46,870 nt of DNA from assembly GCA_009839975.1 (NCBI GenBank), contig VXOP01000281.1, forward strand, positions 1 to 46,870, read 5' to 3'. Within the stretch, counting starts at the first letter, position 1. Each line of letters opens with the position of its first letter. The notes under the pieces are model-generated. The model was given only the letters and a program-made list of their open reading frames with translations, had not been told where the DNA came from and did no database searches. Of this stretch, positions 33,697 to 46,870 are shown in pieces. Source of the DNA: Candidatus Poribacteria bacterium (GTDB lineage Bacteria; Poribacteria; WGA-4E; WGA-3G). A program made the position numbers and the translations under genes.

Positions 33697-35715
33697 TTAT
33701 TCAGAAACAGGTTCTGCTTCAGAAACGGGATCGTGCTCAGAAACAGGTTCTGCATCATCAACAAGCTCAGCATCAACAACAGGTTCTGCATCATCAATAG
33801 ACTCTACATCAGAAACATGAATGGATTCAGAAGCAGGCTCTTCTTCGGAAACAGGTTCTGCATCAGAAACAGGAATGGATTCAGATGCGGAAGCGGGGTT
33901 TCGCTTCAATCCTTTCACAAAATCCTGAATTGTTTGTCCAATCTTTGTTGTATCAATATCGCTAAAGTTAGCAAGTTCCTTGAGGAGTGGCATTGCTGCA
34001 CCAGCATTTATGATAGAGCCAAGAATTCTGTTCATTCCACCTGGACCGCCATTCCCAGCACCATTACCCCCTAAATCAAGTACGCGGATACTTTCTATCC
34101 GTTCAGCGGGTTTCATTAACTCCTTCGTAACTTCAGGCAATGCTTCTACAAGTGCCAGTACTGCATCGCTGACAAGTACTTGCGGCTCAGCCTGATTTTT
34201 AGCAGTAATTAGTGCTTCTTCACCATCTGCCTCAGCTCTTGCTTCAACGAGAAGTGCCTCTGAAAGGATTTTTGTAGCCTCAGCCTTGACTTGCGCTGCT
34301 TCAAATTCTGCCTTTGCAGTTTCAATTATAGTATACGCTTCAGCGTCAGCGGTCTTTTCTTTTGCGATTCTATCCTCGTCCGCTTCCTGCTCGGCACGAA
34401 TCAGTTCTATTTTGCTTTCACGTTCTGCTTTTTCGATTGCTTCCGCTGTTTCAACGGCGGCTTCAGCACGTGCTTTTTCAGCAGAAATCTCCAAAAGTTC
34501 AATCAGAGCAGCCTCACGTTCTTTTTCCTTAACTGACACAAGAATAGCGTTTTGTGCTTCTGCTTCTTTTTCTTCACGTTCTTTGTCTAACAGCACAATT
34601 CTACGTTCAATATCGGTTTCTTTGACAGTAGCCTCTTGTTCAATTTTGGCTTTCTCAATACTAAGGTTTCGCTGAATTTCGGCTTCTTCAACCATCTGCT
34701 GTTGCTGAACTTTTGCAATCTCAATAGCCTGCTGCTGGGAGATTTCGCTTTCTTGAACTAACTTTTCCTGTTCAATGCGTTCCATCTCAATTTTTTGAGT
34801 TTGTGCAATTTCAGCAGATTTCACAGCCAGTTCTTGTTTAATCCGTGCTTCCTCAACTGCTTGGAGCTGCTCGAACTTGTGTGCATCAACCGCGCGTTCC
34901 TGTTCAGCCTTGTTAGTCGCGATCTCCTTGCGCTGTTCTTCTTGTGCAAATTCAAGCCGCTGCTCAACTTCTAATCCTTTTGTTTCTGTTTCCTCTTCCT
35001 TCTGCTTAATTTCGAGTTCCGCGAGGAGACGATCTTCTTCACGTCTGACCTTGTTTTCATGCTCAATCTTCGCCGTTTCTGTCTGCTTTTCTTCCACTTC
35101 CTTTTTTATCGTCTGGATTGCAACAACATCAAATCGGTTGTTTTCATCAAGTGCTTCAAGTGGTGTTTGGTCAAGGTTTGTCACTGCAACAGTTTCAAGC
35201 TTAAAGCCGTTCTGCTCCAAATCCTCAAGACATGCTTCCTGTACCTGGTCAGAAAACTCTTGACGTTTTTCGTGAAGTTCTTGCAAATCCATCGTTGCAG
35301 CCACACTCCGGAGAACACCCACAAGTTTACCCTCCAGCAATGCACTCACTGAGTCTGGGGTTAAGGTTTTTTCACCGAGACTCGCTACTGCCTTAAGCAC
35401 ATCCTGTTCATTGGGCTCAATTTTGACATAGAACTCCGCTTGAATGTCAACACGCAAACTATCCTTAGTAATCAGAGCTGCTTGACCCTCCCGTTCAACA
35501 GGGAGTTGTAACGTATTTAAAGATATAAGCTGCGTCACATTCGTGATTGGATTAACGAGTGTTCCACCAAAAACAACCCGTTTTTTGCTTCCCCCAGAGA
35601 TCACTAACGCTGCATCAGCCGGGGCTTTTTTGTAAAAAGATTTGTAGATTAGTACGAAAATAACAAACAATGCAATAAGACCGCCAACAATGAGCACAAA
35701 AAGTTGTCCTTCCAT
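33697..35715 (-). CDS. Flotillin/YqiK-like SPFH membrane scaffold protein
   Basis: A 672-residue SPFH-domain protein. One N-terminal helix (residues 5-25) anchors it, the SPFH domain covers about 30-205, and a heptad-rich, Glu/Ala/Lys-dense coiled coil spans about 205-540, the part that oligomerises in flotillins. Gly-rich (about 558) and then Glu-rich tail residues follow. The tail (about 600-672) repeats VSEAEP/VDDAEP units. Together with the neighbouring YqiJ homologue 52 bases upstream it matches the E. coli yqiJ-yqiK arrangement, associated with membrane microdomains and envelope stress. A strong AAGGAG site precedes ATG 35715. The acidic repeated tail is unusual for the family. Confidence 0.9.
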   Translation of the reverse strand: MEGQLFVLIVGGLIALFVIFVLIYKSFYKKAPADAALVISGGSKKRVVFGGTLVNPITNVTQLISLNTLQLPVEREGQAALITKDSLRVDIQAEFYVKIEPNEQDVLKAVASLGEKTLTPDSVSALLEGKLVGVLRSVAATMDLQELHEKRQEFSDQVQEACLEDLEQNGFKLETVAVTNLDQTPLEALDENNRFDVVAIQTIKKEVEEKQTETAKIEHENKVRREEDRLLAELEIKQKEEETETKGLEVEQRLEFAQEEQRKEIATNKAEQERAVDAHKFEQLQAVEEARIKQELAVKSAEIAQTQKIEMERIEQEKLVQESEISQQQAIEIAKVQQQQMVEEAEIQRNLSIEKAKIEQEATVKETDIERRIVLLDKEREEKEAEAQNAILVSVKEKEREAALIELLEISAEKARAEAAVETAEAIEKAERESKIELIRAEQEADEDRIAKEKTADAEAYTIIETAKAEFEAAQVKAEATKILSEALLVEARAEADGEEALITAKNQAEPQVLVSDAVLALVEALPEVTKELMKPAERIESIRVLDLGGNGAGNGGPGGMNRILGSIINAGAAMPLLKELANFSDIDTTKIGQTIQDFVKGLKRNPASASESIPVSDAEPVSEEEPASESIHVSDVESIDDAEPVVDAELVDDAEPVSEHDPVSEAEPVSE
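33705..33890 (-). repeat. Tandem coding repeats in the flotillin tail
   Basis: Imperfect repeats of about 18 bases encode units related to VSEAEP and VDDAEP (DAEPVSE, EEPASE, DAEPVVDAEL). The array lies at the end of the flotillin-like gene; unit number is expected to vary between strains. Confidence 0.7.
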
Positions 35716-35767: not shown

Positions 35768-36553
35768 TTACGACATCACCGCTTCTATAGATTTCACATC
35801 AAATATTCGTTTCTCAGGATCATAGCCAATTAGAATCACAATATCACCCTTTACTGGGTTGGGATCACCGGGTTTGACGCGACATTTTACCGTTAACGTA
35901 TGACCATCTGGAACTTGAACCCTTGCGGTGCCGAAAGTCGTTGTGATTTGACCGCTAATCACTCTTCCTTGTAGACCGAGTAGGTGAAGATCCTTCGTGG
36001 GAGGATCGCTTTCCGGAAATATCTTTGAGAGTGTAAGTGATAAGTATCGAGTTCCTAAAATACTGCAAACAAGGGCAGCTGAACAAGATATCCCGAAGAA
36101 TAGGCTTGATGCAGAGTTGACATTGAGGATTTCATTGACAATTAAACCTGTGAAACTCCACGTAGTAAAGAGTGTCATCACCACTATCATAAAGGGTACC
36201 CTTCCTATGTTCAGAAACCCCAATACGTCACCAATAAAATTACCACTTCCGCCTGATCCGGCATCTGTACCTACAGCCGTATCTGCATTAATGTCAGCGT
36301 CCACATCAACGTCAGCGTCCACATCCACATCAACGTCAGCGTCTACATCAAAGTCAACGTCAGCGTCTACATCAAAGTCCACGTCTGCATCAACGTCAAA
36401 GTCCACATCCGCATCAACATCTGCATCTACATCAGCATCCCCAAAGTCCAGGCCACCGAGGATCAGCCGAAAAATTGCAAACAGAAACACGACAGCAAGT
36501 GGTGCAGTAAACCATACATTATATGTTACAGTTAGATAATTCCAAAAACCCAT
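35768..36553 (-). CDS. YqiJ-like (DUF1449/OB-fold) inner-membrane protein with alternating-Asp linker
   Basis: A 261-residue NfeD-like partner of flotillin. I choose the ATG at 36553, which has GAGGAA just before it, instead of a longer upstream reading. Residues 18-34 are a membrane helix, 107-170 hold two or three more (LGFLNIGRVPFMIVV is shared with YqiJ), and 190-255 form an OB-fold. Between the first and second membrane blocks, residues 39-92 are a repeated alternation of Asp with Val, Ala or Phe (DVDADVDF units). In a strand this gives one acidic and one hydrophobic face, so it may bind cations or self-associate. E. coli YqiJ lacks it. Co-operonic with the YqiK homologue. Confidence 0.85.
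   Translation of the reverse strand: MGFWNYLTVTYNVWFTAPLAVVFLFAIFRLILGGLDFGDADVDADVDADVDFDVDADVDFDVDADVDFDVDADVDVDVDADVDVDADINADTAVGTDAGSGGSGNFIGDVLGFLNIGRVPFMIVVMTLFTTWSFTGLIVNEILNVNSASSLFFGISCSAALVCSILGTRYLSLTLSKIFPESDPPTKDLHLLGLQGRVISGQITTTFGTARVQVPDGHTLTVKCRVKPGDPNPVKGDIVILIGYDPEKRIFDVKSIEAVMS
36278..36440 (-). repeat. Coding minisatellite (DVDADVDF units)
   Basis: Near-identical 24-base and 12-base units, written in the plus strand as GTCAACGTCAGCGTCTACATC and relatives, encode residues 39-92 of the YqiJ-like protein. The unit count is irregular, as expected of slippage. It was considered as CRISPR and rejected because there are no spacers. Confidence 0.85.
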
Positions 36554-36607
36554 AATTTCCTCAATTGATAATATATCAACCTTCAAAAAGTGACAAGAGA
36601 ATAACAC

Positions 36608-39350: not shown

Positions 39351-40502
39351 ATGATATATAGTAAAACAAACTTTTGGATAGTTGTTTGTTTGGTTCTATT
39401 TCTATGCGGCACCTATGCTTTTAGTCAAGAACCTACCGCACCGTCAAATGTTGTGGCAAAGGACACACCAAATGATGATGGAACAAGTATAACAGTCACA
39501 TGGGATGCTGCTCCTGAAGATAGTGGTATTTTAGGATACGTGATTCTGCGAAATACTGATGAGGGTGAGTTTGAGGTAATAAAAGCTGAATTAAACCCAG
39601 ACCTATCAAAGTATAAAGATGCCGAGATAGAAAAGGGAAAGGCACATGCATACATTGTCCGTGCTGTTTATGACAACGAAACACCTGTGGATTCTGAACA
39701 AACTGCTGCAGTAAAAGCAACTGGACAGTGGTTTCATACAGGTAAAACACCGTTGTTTCTTGCCATGCTCCTTTTTTCTTCTGCGATCGTATGGAATCTC
39801 TATCATGCACGGAGTGGAAAAGAGGTGTTTATTCGAAGGATTCCTGGTTTAGAAGCTGTTGAAGAAGCCATCGGTAGAGCGACAGAAATGGGACGATCAA
39901 TTCTCTATGTTTTAGGGTTAGGTGGCGTAGACAATGTCGCAACAATTGCAAGTATGACTATTTTGGGTCAGGTTGCACGTCGAACAGCAGACTATGAGAC
40001 GGCACTTCGCGTGCCATGCAACGATCCAATTGTGTTAAACGTTGTTCGTGAAATGGTAAAGACATCCTATCTGGATGTAGGGAGACCCGATGCATACAAT
40101 GAGGATGATATCTTCTTCCTTACTAACGATCAATTTGCGTATGCTGCTGGGGTTGATGGCATGATGATACGGGAAAAACCGGCAGCAGTATTTTTACAAG
40201 GACAATTCTACGCTGAATCACTTCTCATGGCTGAAACCGGTAATTCTATCGGTGCTATTCAGATAGCAGGAACTGATTCTGAACATCAACTACCCTTCTT
40301 TATTGCAGCGTGCGACTATACCTTGATCGGAGAGGAACTCTATGCAGCCAGCGCATACCTTTCCAGAGAACCGATGCTCCTTGGAAGTCTAAAGGGACAA
40401 GACTGGGGTAAATTGCTCATTTTTGCTGCGATCATTCTTGGTGTTTCTCTTGAATTTTTCGGTATTAACTGGATTACAACACTCTTACAAACTGTGAGTT
40501 AG
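39351..40502 (+). CDS. FN3 + DUF6754 membrane protein (module component 1)
   Basis: A 383-residue protein. A signal peptide (to about residue 25, AFSQ) is followed by one fibronectin type III domain (about 28-125; TAPSNVVAKD, TVTWDAAPEDSGILGYVILRN), a membrane helix (about 134-151), an alpha/beta segment (about 160-360) that I associate with DUF6754, and a second helix (about 362-380). The FN3 domain is outside; the DUF6754 segment is cytoplasmic. Its function is unknown. It is the first of four genes with gaps of 8, 3 and 4 bases. AGGATAC precedes the ATG. FN3 suggests binding a partner protein or glycan. Confidence 0.78.
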   Translation: MIYSKTNFWIVVCLVLFLCGTYAFSQEPTAPSNVVAKDTPNDDGTSITVTWDAAPEDSGILGYVILRNTDEGEFEVIKAELNPDLSKYKDAEIEKGKAHAYIVRAVYDNETPVDSEQTAAVKATGQWFHTGKTPLFLAMLLFSSAIVWNLYHARSGKEVFIRRIPGLEAVEEAIGRATEMGRSILYVLGLGGVDNVATIASMTILGQVARRTADYETALRVPCNDPIVLNVVREMVKTSYLDVGRPDAYNEDDIFFLTNDQFAYAAGVDGMMIREKPAAVFLQGQFYAESLLMAETGNSIGAIQIAGTDSEHQLPFFIAACDYTLIGEELYAASAYLSREPMLLGSLKGQDWGKLLIFAAIILGVSLEFFGINWITTLLQTVS

Positions 40503-40510
40503 GAGGTTAA

Positions 40511-41161
40511 ATGAAGCGACAAGTACCATTGGCTCTCTGCTTCCTTTTCGGTGTAGCCATGATCTACACACAATTTAGTCCGCATCAATATTCTGATGCG
40601 ATCTATAAGGAGGTAATTAAATGGGGACTCATCATATCACCGTTCGCGTTGGTGTTGGCGGTTGTGACGCTGATCCAGACTCATGCATCAAGAATACGTT
40701 TCCGTGCAGAACATTGGCAATACAGTTTTATTGTCTTCATCGGCATGATAGCCATGGTCCTAGCAGGTGTTCCGTTTGGAGAACAGAACACAGTCTTAGT
40801 CTGGTTATATGACAATGTACAAGTCCCGATGGATGCGACGATGTTTTCTTTGCTCGCCTTCTTTATTGCATCCGCGGCATTTCGTGCTTTCCGTGCACGC
40901 GCGTTTGAAGCAACGTTACTTCTGATTACGGCAATGTTTGTTATGTTGGGGAATATCCCAGTTGGCGACCTTATCTGGGAAACGTTAATGTCTTGGACTC
41001 CTTGGGAAGACGGGGCATCATGGCTTCGGCAGTGGATACTGGATGTTCCAAACACTGCAGCGCGACGGGGAATCATACTCGGTGTCAGTTTAGGTGTCAT
41101 TTCACAATCTATACGAATAATATTAGGCATCGAACGTTCGTATCTTGGCGGAGGAGATTAA
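40511..41161 (+). CDS. Six-helix membrane protein (module component 2)
   Basis: A 216-residue polytopic protein with six predicted hydrophobic segments, near residues 8-21, 37-56, 72-90, 112-128, 135-148 and 185-200. Short soluble loops include a Trp-rich one (ETLMSWTPWEDGASWLRQW) between the fifth and sixth segments. A strong ribosome-binding site (AGGAGG) lies just before the start. No family is recognised. Its tight fit between components 1 and 3 implies an integral subunit of the same membrane assembly. Confidence 0.72.
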   Translation: MKRQVPLALCFLFGVAMIYTQFSPHQYSDAIYKEVIKWGLIISPFALVLAVVTLIQTHASRIRFRAEHWQYSFIVFIGMIAMVLAGVPFGEQNTVLVWLYDNVQVPMDATMFSLLAFFIASAAFRAFRARAFEATLLLITAMFVMLGNIPVGDLIWETLMSWTPWEDGASWLRQWILDVPNTAARRGIILGVSLGVISQSIRIILGIERSYLGGGD

Positions 41162-41164
41162 GCA

Positions 41165-41980
41165 ATGCTTGAAAAATTCATGAATATGGACAGGAGAATC
41201 ATCTTCCTTTTAGTTGCCTTGGTTGTTATAATTCCCACCTTGATACCTGTCAGATTACCCATCACAGTATCAGAACCGACGCAAAAGTTGTATGATTACA
41301 TTGAACAACTTCCATCAGGATCAAATATTATGTTAGCTTTCGATTACGGTCCATCCTCTCTGGCAGAACCAGAGCCGATGGCTAAAGCAGTCATGCAGCA
41401 CTGTTTTAGTAGAGGCATTAAGGTCATAGGTATGACACTTTTTCCAAGTACAGTAACATTAGCAGATAGACTTATGAAAAAGATCGCTGATGAAAACAAC
41501 GCAGTCTATGGACAGGATTACGTGTTCTTAGGTTACCGACCGGGTACGTTACCGGTTATCCTCGGTATGGGTACGAACATAGCGAACGTCTTTGATAAAG
41601 ACTATCAGGATACGCCACTAAGTGAAATTCCAATGATGGCAGATGTTAAGAACTATGACCAGATTTCATTGCTGCTTGATCTGGCTTCCAGTAGTACAAC
41701 AGAAGCATGGATAATTTATGCTAACACAAAATATGATTTGCAGATTGCTGCAGGTGTTACTGCCGTTATTATCGCGCAGATGTATCCATACCTACAGACA
41801 GGTCAGTTGGTAGGTATGATGCCAGGTTATTTGGGGGCTGCTGAATACGAAAAACTGCTAAACGCACCTGGAGACGGTACAGTGGGTCTTAACACAGCAT
41901 CCTTTGCACATCTTCTGATCATCATTTTGGTGATCTTAGGCAATGTTGCATTCTTTATGCAACGTCGAAAGGAGGCGTAA
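41165..41980 (+). CDS. Bitopic alpha/beta membrane protein (module component 3)
   Basis: A 271-residue protein with a helix at each end (about 13-28 and 245-265) and an alpha/beta domain between them. The domain has the strand-loop-helix rhythm of Rossmann-like folds: LPSGSNIMLAFDYGPSSLAEP, KVIGMTLFPSTV, DYVFLGYRPGTLPVILGMG and a late AWIIYANTKYD. Neither a P-loop nor a known catalytic motif is evident. It resembles component 1 in architecture. Starts three bases after component 2 with a GGAGGAG site; unknown function. Confidence 0.7.
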   Translation: MLEKFMNMDRRIIFLLVALVVIIPTLIPVRLPITVSEPTQKLYDYIEQLPSGSNIMLAFDYGPSSLAEPEPMAKAVMQHCFSRGIKVIGMTLFPSTVTLADRLMKKIADENNAVYGQDYVFLGYRPGTLPVILGMGTNIANVFDKDYQDTPLSEIPMMADVKNYDQISLLLDLASSSTTEAWIIYANTKYDLQIAAGVTAVIIAQMYPYLQTGQLVGMMPGYLGAAEYEKLLNAPGDGTVGLNTASFAHLLIIILVILGNVAFFMQRRKEA

Positions 41981-41984
41981 CTTT

Positions 41985-43169
41985 ATGGATGTTTTTGGAT
42001 TTCTGAATGATGTTCTTGGATTTCTAATAGATGTTTTTGGTCCTTGGATGGATGTTTTTGGACTCTGGGTTGCAGCTATCTTGACGTTATGCATCTATAG
42101 TTTTCTCTACAAAGATAATCCGTTTTATCGTTTTGCGGAACACCTTTTTGTAGGTATATCTGTGGGATATGGTATCGTTATCGCTATACACCAAGGTGTC
42201 ATTCCGTTAGCTTGGGAACCCTTAGTTGAAGCATTTGATGGTCTTTGGATAGAAATAACGGGTGATGTAACGCCTGAATCACGACAAGCACTCTGGGGAT
42301 TATTTAGAATAATACCGATATTCATCGGATTGCTATTCTTTGCCCGTCTTTCACCCACTTACACCTGGTTAATTCGGTATCCGATTGCTATCCTCATAGG
42401 ATTTGGTGCGGGTGTTGCGATTCCAAATGTGTTGCAAGCGAACATCTTTAAACAGACACAAGGAACAGTTGCCCCCTTTGATAAAATCGATGAAATTGTT
42501 GACCCAACCACTTTAATAACCGTTCATACATTTGACCCGAGCTTTTTAGGAACTGCAGGTGCTGTTCTAATGGTCATCGGTGTACTATGCACGATCTCGT
42601 ATTTTCTATTTTCTGTTGAACAGAGAGAATCCTACAAATGGTTCTCCATTTTCGGTATAGGTCTCGGTGTAATAGGACTCACTTTACTTTTTGTCGACAA
42701 TATAATCACTGACGGTTTAACGCTGATTGAAATTGTGGGTTTTGTTCTGATGTTTGTAGGTGTTCTTGGTGGTGCTCTATGTACTGTATTGTACTTTCTT
42801 TCCTCAGTTGAACAGAGAAATACATTCAATTGGTTACCCATCATCGGTGTCGGTTTCTTCATTTTATTCATTATAGGTTTTATTGGGATATACGGCAATA
42901 CGATATGGTCAGGAACCCTAACCCCATGGGAAGTCTTCAGTGCTGTTCTAATAGTCGTTGGTGTATTCTGTACACTTACCTATTTCTTCTTTTCTGTTGA
43001 ACATAGTGGTGCTATACGATGGACATCAAAGATCGGTATTGCTTTCTTGATGATCGGGTTCGGTGCTGCATTCGGTAACACCGTTATGGGACGTCTGGCA
43101 CTCATGATTCACCGTGTCGGTTTCCTCATCAACGATTGGATTGGTTCAATCATTGCACTTTTCGGTTAG
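41985..43169 (+). CDS. Multi-repeat membrane protein (module component 4)
   Basis: A 394-residue polytopic protein. I place the start at ATG 41985 (GGAGG nine bases upstream), not at a longer upstream reading that overlaps component 3. The N-terminus has four heptads (DVFGFLN, DVLGFLI, DVFGPWM, DVFGLWV; residues 2-29). A conserved-looking hairpin (about 36-70, FAEHLFVGISVGYG) and two helices follow. Residues about 193-374 are three tandem copies of a two-helix unit marked by YFxFSVE at 206, 270 and 333. Both repeat types point to internal duplication. No family is recognised; a channel or scaffold fits. Confidence 0.72.
   Translation: MDVFGFLNDVLGFLIDVFGPWMDVFGLWVAAILTLCIYSFLYKDNPFYRFAEHLFVGISVGYGIVIAIHQGVIPLAWEPLVEAFDGLWIEITGDVTPESRQALWGLFRIIPIFIGLLFFARLSPTYTWLIRYPIAILIGFGAGVAIPNVLQANIFKQTQGTVAPFDKIDEIVDPTTLITVHTFDPSFLGTAGAVLMVIGVLCTISYFLFSVEQRESYKWFSIFGIGLGVIGLTLLFVDNIITDGLTLIEIVGFVLMFVGVLGGALCTVLYFLSSVEQRNTFNWLPIIGVGFFILFIIGFIGIYGNTIWSGTLTPWEVFSAVLIVVGVFCTLTYFFFSVEHSGAIRWTSKIGIAFLMIGFGAAFGNTVMGRLALMIHRVGFLINDWIGSIIALFG
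41988..42071 (+). repeat. Four 21-base coding repeats
   Basis: Four tandem units of GATGTTTTTGGATTTCTG type encode the amphipathic heptads DVFGFLN/DVLGFLI/DVFGPWM/DVFGLWV at the N-terminus of module component 4. The third and fourth differ from the first two by several bases. Confidence 0.8.
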
Positions 43170-43208: not shown

Positions 43209-44054
43209 ATGCAACTTGGTTATAGCACATGGGGTATGCCGACTGTTCCAATAGACGTGTCTATCCCACATCTCGCATCCCTCGGTTTTGATGGAATTGA
43301 GTTAACGATCATTCAACGGTTTACAACCGAACTGAGCACATTAGATTCAACTGAACGCAAAAGGATCGCTTCCTTACTTGATGATCACAACTTAGCTTTA
43401 CCTGCAATCGCTGCGCATTCTAATCTTATGGATGTTGATGTTGAATCTCACAAGCGAAATATGTGGCGTTTGAAGGGTGGCGTTGACTTGGCGATTGACC
43501 TTGCACAAGGTGATAATATCGCTGCTGTCAATACGACGACAGGTGGCAAACCGGGTGAATGGGATACAAAGAAGGATTTTTTATGTGAACGTGTCGGTGA
43601 ATTGGTTGATTATGCTGCATCAAAGGGTGTAATTATTGCGATGGAACCACACATCGGTGCAATTATAGATACACCTGCAAAAGTGCTTGAACTGCTTGAA
43701 ATCATAGATTCTCCCTATCTAAAGGTCAATTTTGACATTAGCCATTTTGACATTGTTGGTATGTCTACTGAAGAAACGGTCTCAGTATTAGCACCTGTTT
43801 CCGTCCATACACATGTAAAAGATCAACGCGGTATATCACCAGATTTTGAGTTTCTCATTCCCGGTGAAGGTGAATTTGATTATATGCACTATCTCAAAGC
43901 AATGCAGGAACACGGATATGATGGATTTATCACTGCTGAAGTGAGTTTTATGGTTCAAGCACGTAAGGATTACGATCCGCTCGCAGCAGCAGATTTGACT
44001 TATGAGACTCTATCTAAAGCATTTGATGATGCTGGTATTGCGCGAAATCCATAA
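43209..44054 (+). CDS. Sugar-phosphate isomerase/epimerase-like TIM barrel
   Basis: A 281-residue protein of the AP-endonuclease-2/xylose-isomerase-like superfamily. It begins MQLGYSTWGMPTVPID, has LGFDGIELT, and metal-binding candidates: Glu in MEPHIGAI, His-Asp around NFDISHFD, HTHVKDQ and the late Glu in TAEVSF. These enzymes isomerise or epimerise sugars or inositols with a divalent metal. GGAGAAG precedes the ATG. It starts 40 bases after the module, 11 bases before the sulfatase. It may process sugars released by the adjacent sulfatases. Confidence 0.85.
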   Translation: MQLGYSTWGMPTVPIDVSIPHLASLGFDGIELTIIQRFTTELSTLDSTERKRIASLLDDHNLALPAIAAHSNLMDVDVESHKRNMWRLKGGVDLAIDLAQGDNIAAVNTTTGGKPGEWDTKKDFLCERVGELVDYAASKGVIIAMEPHIGAIIDTPAKVLELLEIIDSPYLKVNFDISHFDIVGMSTEETVSVLAPVSVHTHVKDQRGISPDFEFLIPGEGEFDYMHYLKAMQEHGYDGFITAEVSFMVQARKDYDPLAAADLTYETLSKAFDDAGIARNP

Positions 44055-44064
44055 AGGAAATAAC

Positions 44065-45441
44065 ATGAAACCAAACATACTTCTTCTCATGACAGATCAA
44101 CAGCGATGGGATGCGATGGGTTGTAGTGGTGGATGGGTGCAGACGCCACATCTGGATCGGATAGCAAGTGAAGGTGTCCGTTTCAATAATTGTGTCACGA
44201 CATCTCCTGTCTGCATTCCCACACGACTCAGTTTAGCAACCGGTTTATATCCACACAATACGGGTGTTTGGAACAACATGGGACATACTATGTCCGCTGA
44301 TACACCCACCTGGATGCAAGCTGTGCGTTCAGCAGGTTATCGCACAAGTCTTTTTGGCAAGACTCACCTTCATCCACACCAGGGAGACTTACGTGATCGT
44401 GAAGATTTGATGCATGCCTACGGTTTAGATGATATAGACGAGATAGGTGGTCCTCGTGCAAGTGCGCGTGTAAAATCGTATATGACTGACATGTGGGAAG
44501 AAAAAGGTCTATGGGATGGATACCGAGCAGACTATAGCGAAAGATTCAGCAATAAGCCGTACATCGTGCGTCCATCTCCACTCGGTCTTGAAAACTATGC
44601 TGATGTTTACGTTGGTCAACAGGCAAAACAGTATATCCAAGATTATGATCGCGCTGAACCGTGGTGTTGCTGGGTGAGTTTCGGAGGTCCGCATGAACCG
44701 TGGGATACACCTGAACCTTATGCCAGTATGTATGACCCACATGCTATGCCTCCCCCAATACAACGACCTGAAACTGGTGATCGTCCTCTGGGGAATCTGG
44801 ACAGTAAGATGCGGCAAATGAACCCAAAATTTGAAGAGGGTGAAGTTGGACGACTACGAGCAGACTATGCAGGAAATGTCACACTCATTGATGCACAGAT
44901 CGGTGAAATCCTTGAGGCAATTCATGCACGCGGTGAACTTGATAATACAGTGATTGTTCACAGTTCCGACCACGGAGAGATGAATGGTGACTACGGTCTC
45001 ATCTACAAGAATACCTTCCTAAACGGTGCTGTTAGAGTCCCTTTAATTGTCAGAACGCCTGAAACACTAAGAAACCATACATCAGAAATAACATCTGACA
45101 GTCCTGCTGAATGGATTGATATAGGTCCCACACTTGTTGAATTCGCTGGTGGTGAAATGAAACATCGTCAATTTGGAAAATCCTTATGTCCTGCCCTTGA
45201 TGATCCGAATACAATACATCGAGAATACGCTATATCAGAACTATCAGGAGAAATAATGCTGCTCAATCAGGAGTGGAAAATAGCATTGAATCAGGAAGGA
45301 GAGTGTTATCTCTTGTTTGATGTGAAGAACGATCCAGATGAAATTAACAATCTCGCGGGTTTACCAGAAATGAAAGAATTAGAGACAGCGTTAAGATTGC
45401 AAGTTTTAGAACATCTGTTCAACACACAAACGAAAAAGTAG
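44065..45441 (+). CDS. Formylglycine-type sulfatase without signal peptide
   Basis: A 458-residue type I sulfatase. Cys50 in CIPTR is the residue converted to formylglycine by a maturation enzyme that must be encoded elsewhere. Metal-site residues include Asp11-Gln12 (MTDQQRWD) and the late SSDHGEMNGD. It hydrolyses a sulfate ester, likely on a polysaccharide or sugar. I place the start at 44065, where AAGGAA lies upstream; an upstream in-frame reading would overlap the isomerase gene by 53 bases. No signal peptide is visible, so it would be cytoplasmic, in contrast to its neighbour. Roughly two-thirds of its residues look identical to those of the following sulfatase. Confidence 0.92.
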   Translation: MKPNILLLMTDQQRWDAMGCSGGWVQTPHLDRIASEGVRFNNCVTTSPVCIPTRLSLATGLYPHNTGVWNNMGHTMSADTPTWMQAVRSAGYRTSLFGKTHLHPHQGDLRDREDLMHAYGLDDIDEIGGPRASARVKSYMTDMWEEKGLWDGYRADYSERFSNKPYIVRPSPLGLENYADVYVGQQAKQYIQDYDRAEPWCCWVSFGGPHEPWDTPEPYASMYDPHAMPPPIQRPETGDRPLGNLDSKMRQMNPKFEEGEVGRLRADYAGNVTLIDAQIGEILEAIHARGELDNTVIVHSSDHGEMNGDYGLIYKNTFLNGAVRVPLIVRTPETLRNHTSEITSDSPAEWIDIGPTLVEFAGGEMKHRQFGKSLCPALDDPNTIHREYAISELSGEIMLLNQEWKIALNQEGECYLLFDVKNDPDEINNLAGLPEMKELETALRLQVLEHLFNTQTKK

Positions 45442-45475
45442 CTTCTTAGGATTTAAGAGTCTTGTGAGGTTACCT

Positions 45476-46870
45476 ATGAGAGACAAAAGAATATCCAAAG
45501 AATCTAAAAGAACTGAAACGACAACACATTCTTTGAATGATTGCATCAACCGTAGAACTTTCATTAAAGAGTTAGGTATTGCAGGAGTAGGAACCTATTC
45601 ACTCTTGAATTCAGCAAACACTTTGGCACTGAATAAAGATACAGAGCAGCGGAAACCCAACATTCTCTTTATTATGACAGACCAGCAACGATGGGATGCT
45701 ATGGGTGGCAGTGGTGGTTGGGTGCAAACACCAAACATGGATCGTATTGCAAGCGAGGGAGTCCGTTATACCAACTGTGTTACCACTTCACCTGTCTGCG
45801 TTCCAGCGAGGCTCAGTTTAGCAACAGGTTTGTATGCTCATAATACAGGCGTTTGGAATAATTCCAAACATAAAATGCGTGCTGATACACCGACATGGAT
45901 GCAGGCAATTCGCGATGCTGGCTATCGTACAAGTCTTTTTGGAAAAACACATCTGCACACAAATAATGGTGATCTGCGGAAACGTGAACACTTGATGCAT
46001 GCTTATGGATTGGATGATGTTAATGAGATCGGCGGTCCACGAGCAAGTATGAAATGTTTATCCTACTTAACAGAAATGTGGGAAGAAAAGGGTTTATGGA
46101 AAGCCTACCAGAAAGACTATGATGACCGATTCAAGACGAAACCGCATCTTGTCCGTCCAACACCAGTGGGCCTTGAGAATGATGCTGATGTCTATGTTGG
46201 ACAACAAGCAAAGCGGTATCTGCAAAATTATGATCATGATAAACCTTGGTTCTGTTGGGTGAGTTTCGGTGGTCCCCATGAACCGTGGGATTCACCTGAA
46301 CCTTATGCCAGTATGTATTCACCGAAAGACATGCCATCTCCTGTTTCTCGTCCCGTAAAAGGTGATCGTCCACTTGGACATTTAGATACGTTACTAAAGT
46401 CCAAGAAGAGAAGTCCAAAGTTTGAAAAAGGGGATGTAGAGAGAATGCGTGCAGATTATGCGGGAAATGTCACACTCATAGATGACCAGATTGGCGAAAT
46501 CACTGATGTTATACAAGACCGAGGCGAATTAGAAAATACTGTAATCGTTTTCAGTTCGGATCACGGTGAAATGAATGGTGATTACGGTTTAATTTACAAA
46601 AGCAACTTTCTCAACGGTGCTGTCCGTATCCCACTACTTATGCGAACACCTGAAACACTAAAGAATGATAACCAAAATCGTATTTGTAATAGTCCTGTTG
46701 AATGGATTGATATTGGACCGACACTTGTTGAACTCGCTGACGGTAATTTGAAGCATCGGCAATTTGGCAAAACACTAACCCCTACCTTAAAAAATGTAGA
46801 AGTTCATCACCGAGAATATGCTATCTCCCAATTAGCTAAAGAAACGATGCTGTTAAACAGAGAATGGAAA
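45476..46870 (+). CDS. Formylglycine-type sulfatase with Tat signal (3' truncated by window)
   Basis: At least 465 residues, open to the end of the window. The N-terminus has a Tat twin-arginine motif (NRRTFIK, residues 25-31) and a short hydrophobic stretch, so the folded enzyme should be exported. Formylglycine Cys108 sits in CVPAR. Metal motifs (MTDQQRWD, SSDHGEMNGD) repeat those of the preceding sulfatase, with which it is a tandem duplicate. A GAGGT site sits 7 bases before the ATG. The missing C-terminus should be short, because the preceding paralogue ends about 60 residues after the matching point. Probably acts on sulfated glycans in the periplasm or outside. Confidence 0.93.
   Translation, partial: MRDKRISKESKRTETTTHSLNDCINRRTFIKELGIAGVGTYSLLNSANTLALNKDTEQRKPNILFIMTDQQRWDAMGGSGGWVQTPNMDRIASEGVRYTNCVTTSPVCVPARLSLATGLYAHNTGVWNNSKHKMRADTPTWMQAIRDAGYRTSLFGKTHLHTNNGDLRKREHLMHAYGLDDVNEIGGPRASMKCLSYLTEMWEEKGLWKAYQKDYDDRFKTKPHLVRPTPVGLENDADVYVGQQAKRYLQNYDHDKPWFCWVSFGGPHEPWDSPEPYASMYSPKDMPSPVSRPVKGDRPLGHLDTLLKSKKRSPKFEKGDVERMRADYAGNVTLIDDQIGEITDVIQDRGELENTVIVFSSDHGEMNGDYGLIYKSNFLNGAVRIPLLMRTPETLKNDNQNRICNSPVEWIDIGPTLVELADGNLKHRQFGKTLTPTLKNVEVHHREYAISQLAKETMLLNREWK

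Follow-up and report, generated by a model that had tools for sequence, protein, structure and literature searches.

The window, a 46,870-nucleotide stretch of DNA from Candidatus Poribacteria bacterium (contig VXOP01000281.1), carries four adjacent genes for membrane proteins, P1 to P4. They occupy 39351..40502 (P1, 383 aa), 40511..41161 (P2, 216 aa), 41165..41980 (P3, 271 aa), and 41985..43169 (P4, 394 aa). All four open reading frames (ORFs) are on the forward strand, separated from one another by 8, 3, and 4 bases, in agreement with an original prediction that had read them as a module downstream of aroKB encoding one unrecognized inner-membrane complex. The module is real and recurs, but it makes up only half of a larger system, to which a long MutL-like protein (a putative ATPase) and two further proteins, c8 and c11, also belong. 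Placement downstream of aroKB proved to be lineage-specific: it holds in loci L002–L009 and fails in L010 and outside the phylum.

P1 consists of a signal peptide, an FN3-like domain (~28–122), a transmembrane (TM) helix (~133–153), DUF6754, and a C-terminal TM helix. The assignment to DUF6754 is unambiguous, with P1 matching PF20539 as a full-length member (E = 5.9e-123, 409.4 bits against a gathering cut-off of 27, positions 2–256 of 257). The FN3 assignment is weaker. Its profile match falls under the cut-off (E = 0.077), but it is made plausible by a match to titin FN3 in the Protein Data Bank (PDB; E = 0.017) and by an AlphaFold2 model in which this stretch forms a beta-sandwich (predicted local distance difference test [pLDDT] 77–88). 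The number of FN3 domains varies among P1 homologs and short forms have none (for example 258 aa in L056), and the core is therefore DUF6754 plus P2–P4. DUF6754 is the most conserved part of the cassette by identity comparison. The residues flanking the P1 TM helix in 54 homologs average 4.15 K+R per 15 residues on the DUF6754 side and 1.8 on the other, which places DUF6754 in the cytoplasm and the FN3 part outside it.

P2 has six TM helices and a conserved motif, LAFFIASAAFRAFRAR, as seen from hydropathy and a 19-row alignment; six helices are predicted in 42 of 52 homologs. P3 has an N-terminal TM helix, an alpha/beta domain, and a C-terminal TM helix. Hydropathy and an AlphaFold2 model (pLDDT 64.6) agree on this arrangement, with a Rossmann-like alpha/beta domain between the two helices. 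Foldseek comparison of the model with the PDB returned generic Rossmann-like matches alone, none at E ≤ 1e-3. Across 52 homologs, the outer ends of the P3 helices carry more K+R (2.88 and 2.56) than the domain-side ends (1.54 and 1.5). Both protein ends are thus the positive sides, and by this rule they lie inside and the alpha/beta domain is extracytoplasmic. With DUF6754 inside and the P3 domain outside, the two alpha/beta domains face opposite sides of the membrane. This corrects the earlier description of two polytopic and two anchored alpha/beta proteins. In one of three cassettes in genome G093, an extra 165-aa ORF lies between P2 and P3 (L045:4593–5090).

P4 is polytopic, with an ancestral six-TM core that contains the motif SFLYKDNPFYRFAEHLFVG and two extra TM hairpins in this lineage. 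It had been called repeat-rich, and it contains three TM-hairpin copies at 192/189-nt spacing, within which an 87-nt unit occurs three times at the same spacing (42579..43046, forward strand). Alignment with homologs identifies the last hairpin copy as the ancestral one, from which the two extras were copied. In other Poribacteria and in all outgroups P4 is 200–250 aa long, an approximately six-TM core with the motif SFLYKDNPFYKFAEH. The hairpin duplication is confined to the window and the close relatives L002 and L003, and the repeats are on this sequence evidence a recent, local addition. P4 also opens with three tandem 21-nt repeats (41985–42062) that encode DVFGFLN-like heptads, and L002 has the same extension.

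Two genome sets were used to follow the cassette: a first set of 146 genomes around the window, 61 of them outside its phylum, and a second set of 193 genomes centered on the outgroup G118 that partly overlaps the first (36 of its 51 positives are new). Absences in these counts may reflect assembly loss where the genomes are metagenome-assembled genomes (MAGs). In the first set, 95 of 146 genomes gave a PF20539 match, among them 13 of the 61 outside the phylum, and none of 14 well-known control genomes did. A P3 profile identified the same 95 genomes, including the same 13 outside the phylum. The second set yielded DUF6754 in 51 genomes and P3 in 52, that is, in all 51 together with one extra weak P3 match. 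DUF6754-positive genomes span ~43 families. The order P1-P2-P3-P4 was found in 39 complete cassettes among the loci read, from Poribacteria and other phyla. The set recurs in this order in many phyla, which the original prediction had named as a test, and its recurrence is far beyond chance. Cassettes are also duplicated as blocks: L043 and L111 each hold two copies of P1–P4, and L102 holds three. No plasmid carriage of the system was found. In a named genome collection, the nine relatives of P3 were all from Poribacteria MAGs. A divergent P3-like ORF (93 bits) in G179 (C20:39791–40534), a genome with no DUF6754 match, is possibly a remote branch. Omp85 occurs in 140 of 146 genomes, irrespective of whether they carry the system, and is absent from the DUF6754-positive G143; the system is not a marker of an outer membrane.

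In some loci the remaining components lie upstream of P1. L010, which comes from a different Poribacteria family, has the order c11-MutL-c8-P1-P2-P3-P4, as do L041, L042, and L052; in class-level relatives the run begins with gapA-pgk-tpiA-secG. In 14 of 51 genomes, c11, MutL, c8, and DUF6754 are in one cluster, short steps apart. The window genome has MutL (C76:2178–3620) and c8 (C226:15367–16482) away from the cassette contig, and c11 was not found in its 454-contig assembly. The c11 protein is ~106 aa long. At ~375 aa, c8 weakly resembles the barrel-sandwich domain of RnfC in four of seven members (best E = 2.2e-5; the one member inspected in full falls below the Pfam cut-off) and has a KOW-like end that is not significant. 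A possible eighth component, c14 (~140 aa, with two TM helices and perhaps a PH-like domain), is often directly 5' of c11 (for example L086:5346–5768, L055:6846–7292, and L042:15010–15423).

The long MutL (PF13941) is ~600 aa and is extended at its C terminus by some 130 aa. The ASKHA phosphate-1, phosphate-2, and adenosine motifs (DCGSTTTKA, DIGGATTD, and GSGGVLSHAP) are conserved in 18 long MutL sequences, and ATP use is likely because all three are kept. Its nearest named relatives are GlmL and Or-4 (TIGR01319, NF040745, and NF040744), with which it shares the ASKHA fold family and the nucleotide motifs. This kinship raises the alternative that the long MutL and c8 are a reactivase or chaperone for P1–P4 or for an attached cofactor enzyme, as GlmL-type proteins supposedly are for B12 mutases. 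The long MutLs tested, however, score below the curated GlmL-family cut-offs (TIGR01319/NF040745). Against the glmL_fam cut-off of 204.05 they reach 192.7 in L041, 170.1 in the window's own genome, and 73.8, 175.4, and 189.2 in L063, L056, and L067; against a cut-off of 475 those of the window genome and L041 reach 227 and 242.6. Genuine GlmL/Or-4 members by NCBIfam reach 339.7 (G115) and 286.3 (G133). The long form also differs from GlmL and Or-4 in its C-terminal extension and in its ties to DUF6754, c11, and c8; its recurrent neighbors are c11 (33 of 45) and c8 (32 of 48). P1–P4 match no cofactor-binding family, and a reactivase role appears quite unlikely.

All three partner proteins are inherited with DUF6754. 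In the second set, c8 is present in 49 of 51 DUF6754-positive and 0 of 142 DUF6754-negative genomes (Fisher P = 6e-44), with two matches at E ~7e-4 treated as noise. The corresponding counts are 48 of 51 and 1 of 142 for the long MutL (P = 1.5e-40), where MutLs in three further negatives were called classical on their length of 469–484 aa alone, and 47 of 51 and 1 of 142 for c11 (P = 5e-39). The sole exception among the negatives, G173, has c11 adjoining a long MutL in a genome that is 85% complete. Outside the phylum, the first set gave c8 in 12 of 13 positives and 0 of 48 negatives, c11 in 11 of 13 and 0 of 48, and MutL above 100 bits in 11 of 13 and 2 of 48, these two being G115 and G133. 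An alternative is that the partners are mere housekeeping genes that share no function and that common descent has held together. Several clusters do adjoin gapA-pgk-tpiA-secG, and related genomes are not independent, but c8 is strictly absent from the 142 negatives and its association stays when unlinked genomes alone are counted (first set, P = 3e-8). In G010, a single-contig genome from the window's genus, the cassette is at 3.39 Mb, MutL at 2.83 Mb, c8 at 4.40 Mb, and c11 at 4.58 Mb. Linkage does not explain the co-inheritance, since c8 remains associated when unlinked and the loci in G010 are hundreds of kilobases apart. Together with the MutL-c8 fusions described below, this makes mere shared ancestry extremely improbable, and we are highly confident that P1–P4, c8, MutL, and c11 form one functional unit.

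Fusions and copy number give further information on how the parts work together. Five uninterrupted ORFs of 862–1015 aa, one each in G235, G201, and G192 and two in G167, have MutL as the first half and a c8-like second half; these genomes also have separate c8 copies. Natural fusions of this kind point to joint action of MutL and c8. The longest, 1015 aa (L097:3878–6925, reverse strand), starts with a segment that by eye resembles an XRE-like helix-turn-helix, which suggests that a regulatory paralog exists. G235 has seven DUF6754 cassettes and G188 and G221 have six, but each genome has one full-length c8, and c11 is also single-copy in all three. Many genomes combine several paralogous cassettes with a single full-length c8, and one shared cytosolic unit therefore probably works for more than one cassette, each time with other partners.

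The XRE-like segment also agrees with an alternative in which the system is a signaling or sensing complex. The outer FN3 and alpha/beta domains would bind a ligand, DUF6754 would relay the signal, and the MutL-like ASKHA protein with c8 would be the output switch. The topology, with two anchored domains outside and one inside, would suit such a role. A sensor would not usually need two additional six-TM proteins, though, and no recurrent regulator, kinase, or GGDEF neighbor was seen. DUF6754, as the most conserved part, more closely resembles a working or interface domain, and we regard sensing as unlikely.

The reading we prefer is that P1–P4 form one inner-membrane complex, the membrane half of a conserved, ATP-energized system of at least seven proteins. 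The cytosolic half would consist of the long MutL/GlmL-like ASKHA ATPase, c8 as a barrel-sandwich adaptor, and the small c11. The MutL-like protein would bind and hydrolyze ATP and in this way act, through c8, on the cytoplasmic DUF6754 of P1. The six-TM proteins P2 and P4 would then shift conformation and transmit the change to the outer domains, where the extracytoplasmic FN3 (P1) and alpha/beta (P3) domains would do work, most likely by moving or handling an envelope substrate. Confidence differs among the parts: a physical complex of P1–P4 is, to judge by the sequences, very probable, coupling of ATP to it is somewhat favored, and a purpose in envelope transport or handling is tentative. 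These gradings, with that for the functional unit, are judgments that together give the whole reading about an even chance. Equally tentative is the possibility of a new class of ATP-driven bacterial membrane machine, present in about one in four genomes of a broad sample, in which a GlmL-like ASKHA ATPase and a barrel-sandwich adaptor energize interchangeable four-protein cassettes.

Several observations weigh against this reading. G091 and G141 have the cassette but no MutL, and G163 carries P1–P4 only, so in these genomes MutL is not strictly required, or has been replaced or missed. The ratio of P3 to DUF6754 identity is 0.76 within loci and 0.75 between them; this near-equality leaves substrate-specific cassettes with no sequence support beyond copy number, and substrate-driven divergence, which would appear as extra divergence in P3, was rejected. 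AlphaFold2 gave the DUF6754 region a pLDDT of ~30 from a shallow alignment (10 rows, mostly 76%–93% identical). The Fisher P values ignore shared ancestry, are inflated by relatedness, and are descriptive only. Gene order, co-inheritance, the MutL-c8 fusions, the charge-based topology, and the retained ASKHA nucleotide motifs are direct observations, and physical assembly, ATP coupling, the direction of work, and the substrate are points that we infer.

Comparison with known systems, by profile and by structure, identified no known complex, in line with the original prediction, which had recognized none. DUF6754 is the one Pfam family among the four window proteins, and itself lacks a described function; neither Pfam nor NCBIfam has a family for P2–P4, and scans of 16–19 divergent members of each gave no recurrent match. 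PDB sequence searches with P1, P3, c8, and MutL yielded nothing significant. Pairwise hhalign comparison of P1, P2, P3, P4, c8, and MutL profiles gave no significant match, and homology among these subunits was rejected. PADLOC models did not match P1–P4, c8, MutL, or c14; the sole match was to c11, at chance level (E = 0.0093 over 18 residues), and no known anti-phage defense system was thus identified. Group II energy-coupling factor (ECF) transporters have one shared energizing unit for several membrane modules, and the present system appears similar in this respect. It differs in that the energizer is of the ASKHA type, with no P-loop ATP-binding cassette (ABC) ATPase (no ABC_tran match above cut-off in P1–P4, c8, or MutL), and in having four membrane proteins per module. 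Likeness to the peripheral subunits RnfC and NqrA is limited to the weak barrel-sandwich match of c8. There are no redox subunits, and membership in Rnf/Nqr was rejected because neither the P2 nor the P4 alignment matched a Pfam membrane-subunit family of these complexes.

An ion-driven energy transducer, with P2 and P4 as the ion path and the MutL part merely regulating assembly, would fit the conserved charges at TM edges in P4 (KDN and EH) and P2 (FRAFRAR). Those charges may instead be loop residues, and there is no Pfam similarity to the membrane subunits of MotAB, ExbBD, Nqr, or Rnf, which makes this alternative very unlikely. The seven-gene system belongs to no machine that we can name.

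No literature on DUF6754/PF20539, and nothing relevant on related subjects, was found in a search that covered open-licence papers and may have missed an account published behind a subscription; within that search, its partners P2–P4, c8, c11, and the long MutL appear to be undescribed. The system has stayed whole in tens of bacterial families and can be overlooked, as most components have no family model. Five orphan families are here joined into one testable object. If the proposed reading is true, the system represents an unfamiliar way in which an ASKHA motor protein powers work across the inner membrane. It would also assign a function both to DUF6754 and to a MutL/GlmL branch now named after B12 enzyme helpers.

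Other genes in the window were also identified. On the strand opposite to aroKB and P1–P4, a flotillin-type SPFH protein (33697–35715; PF01145 and PF15975) adjoins a membrane protein of the YqiJ_N/NfeD-like type (35768–36607), in which (DVDADVDF)n forms a long acidic repeat. P4 is followed by a xylose-isomerase-like TIM barrel (43209–44054), and 3' of this are two adjoining, clearly related sulfatase-like ORFs (44002–45441 and 45464–46870), the second of which extends beyond the window end.

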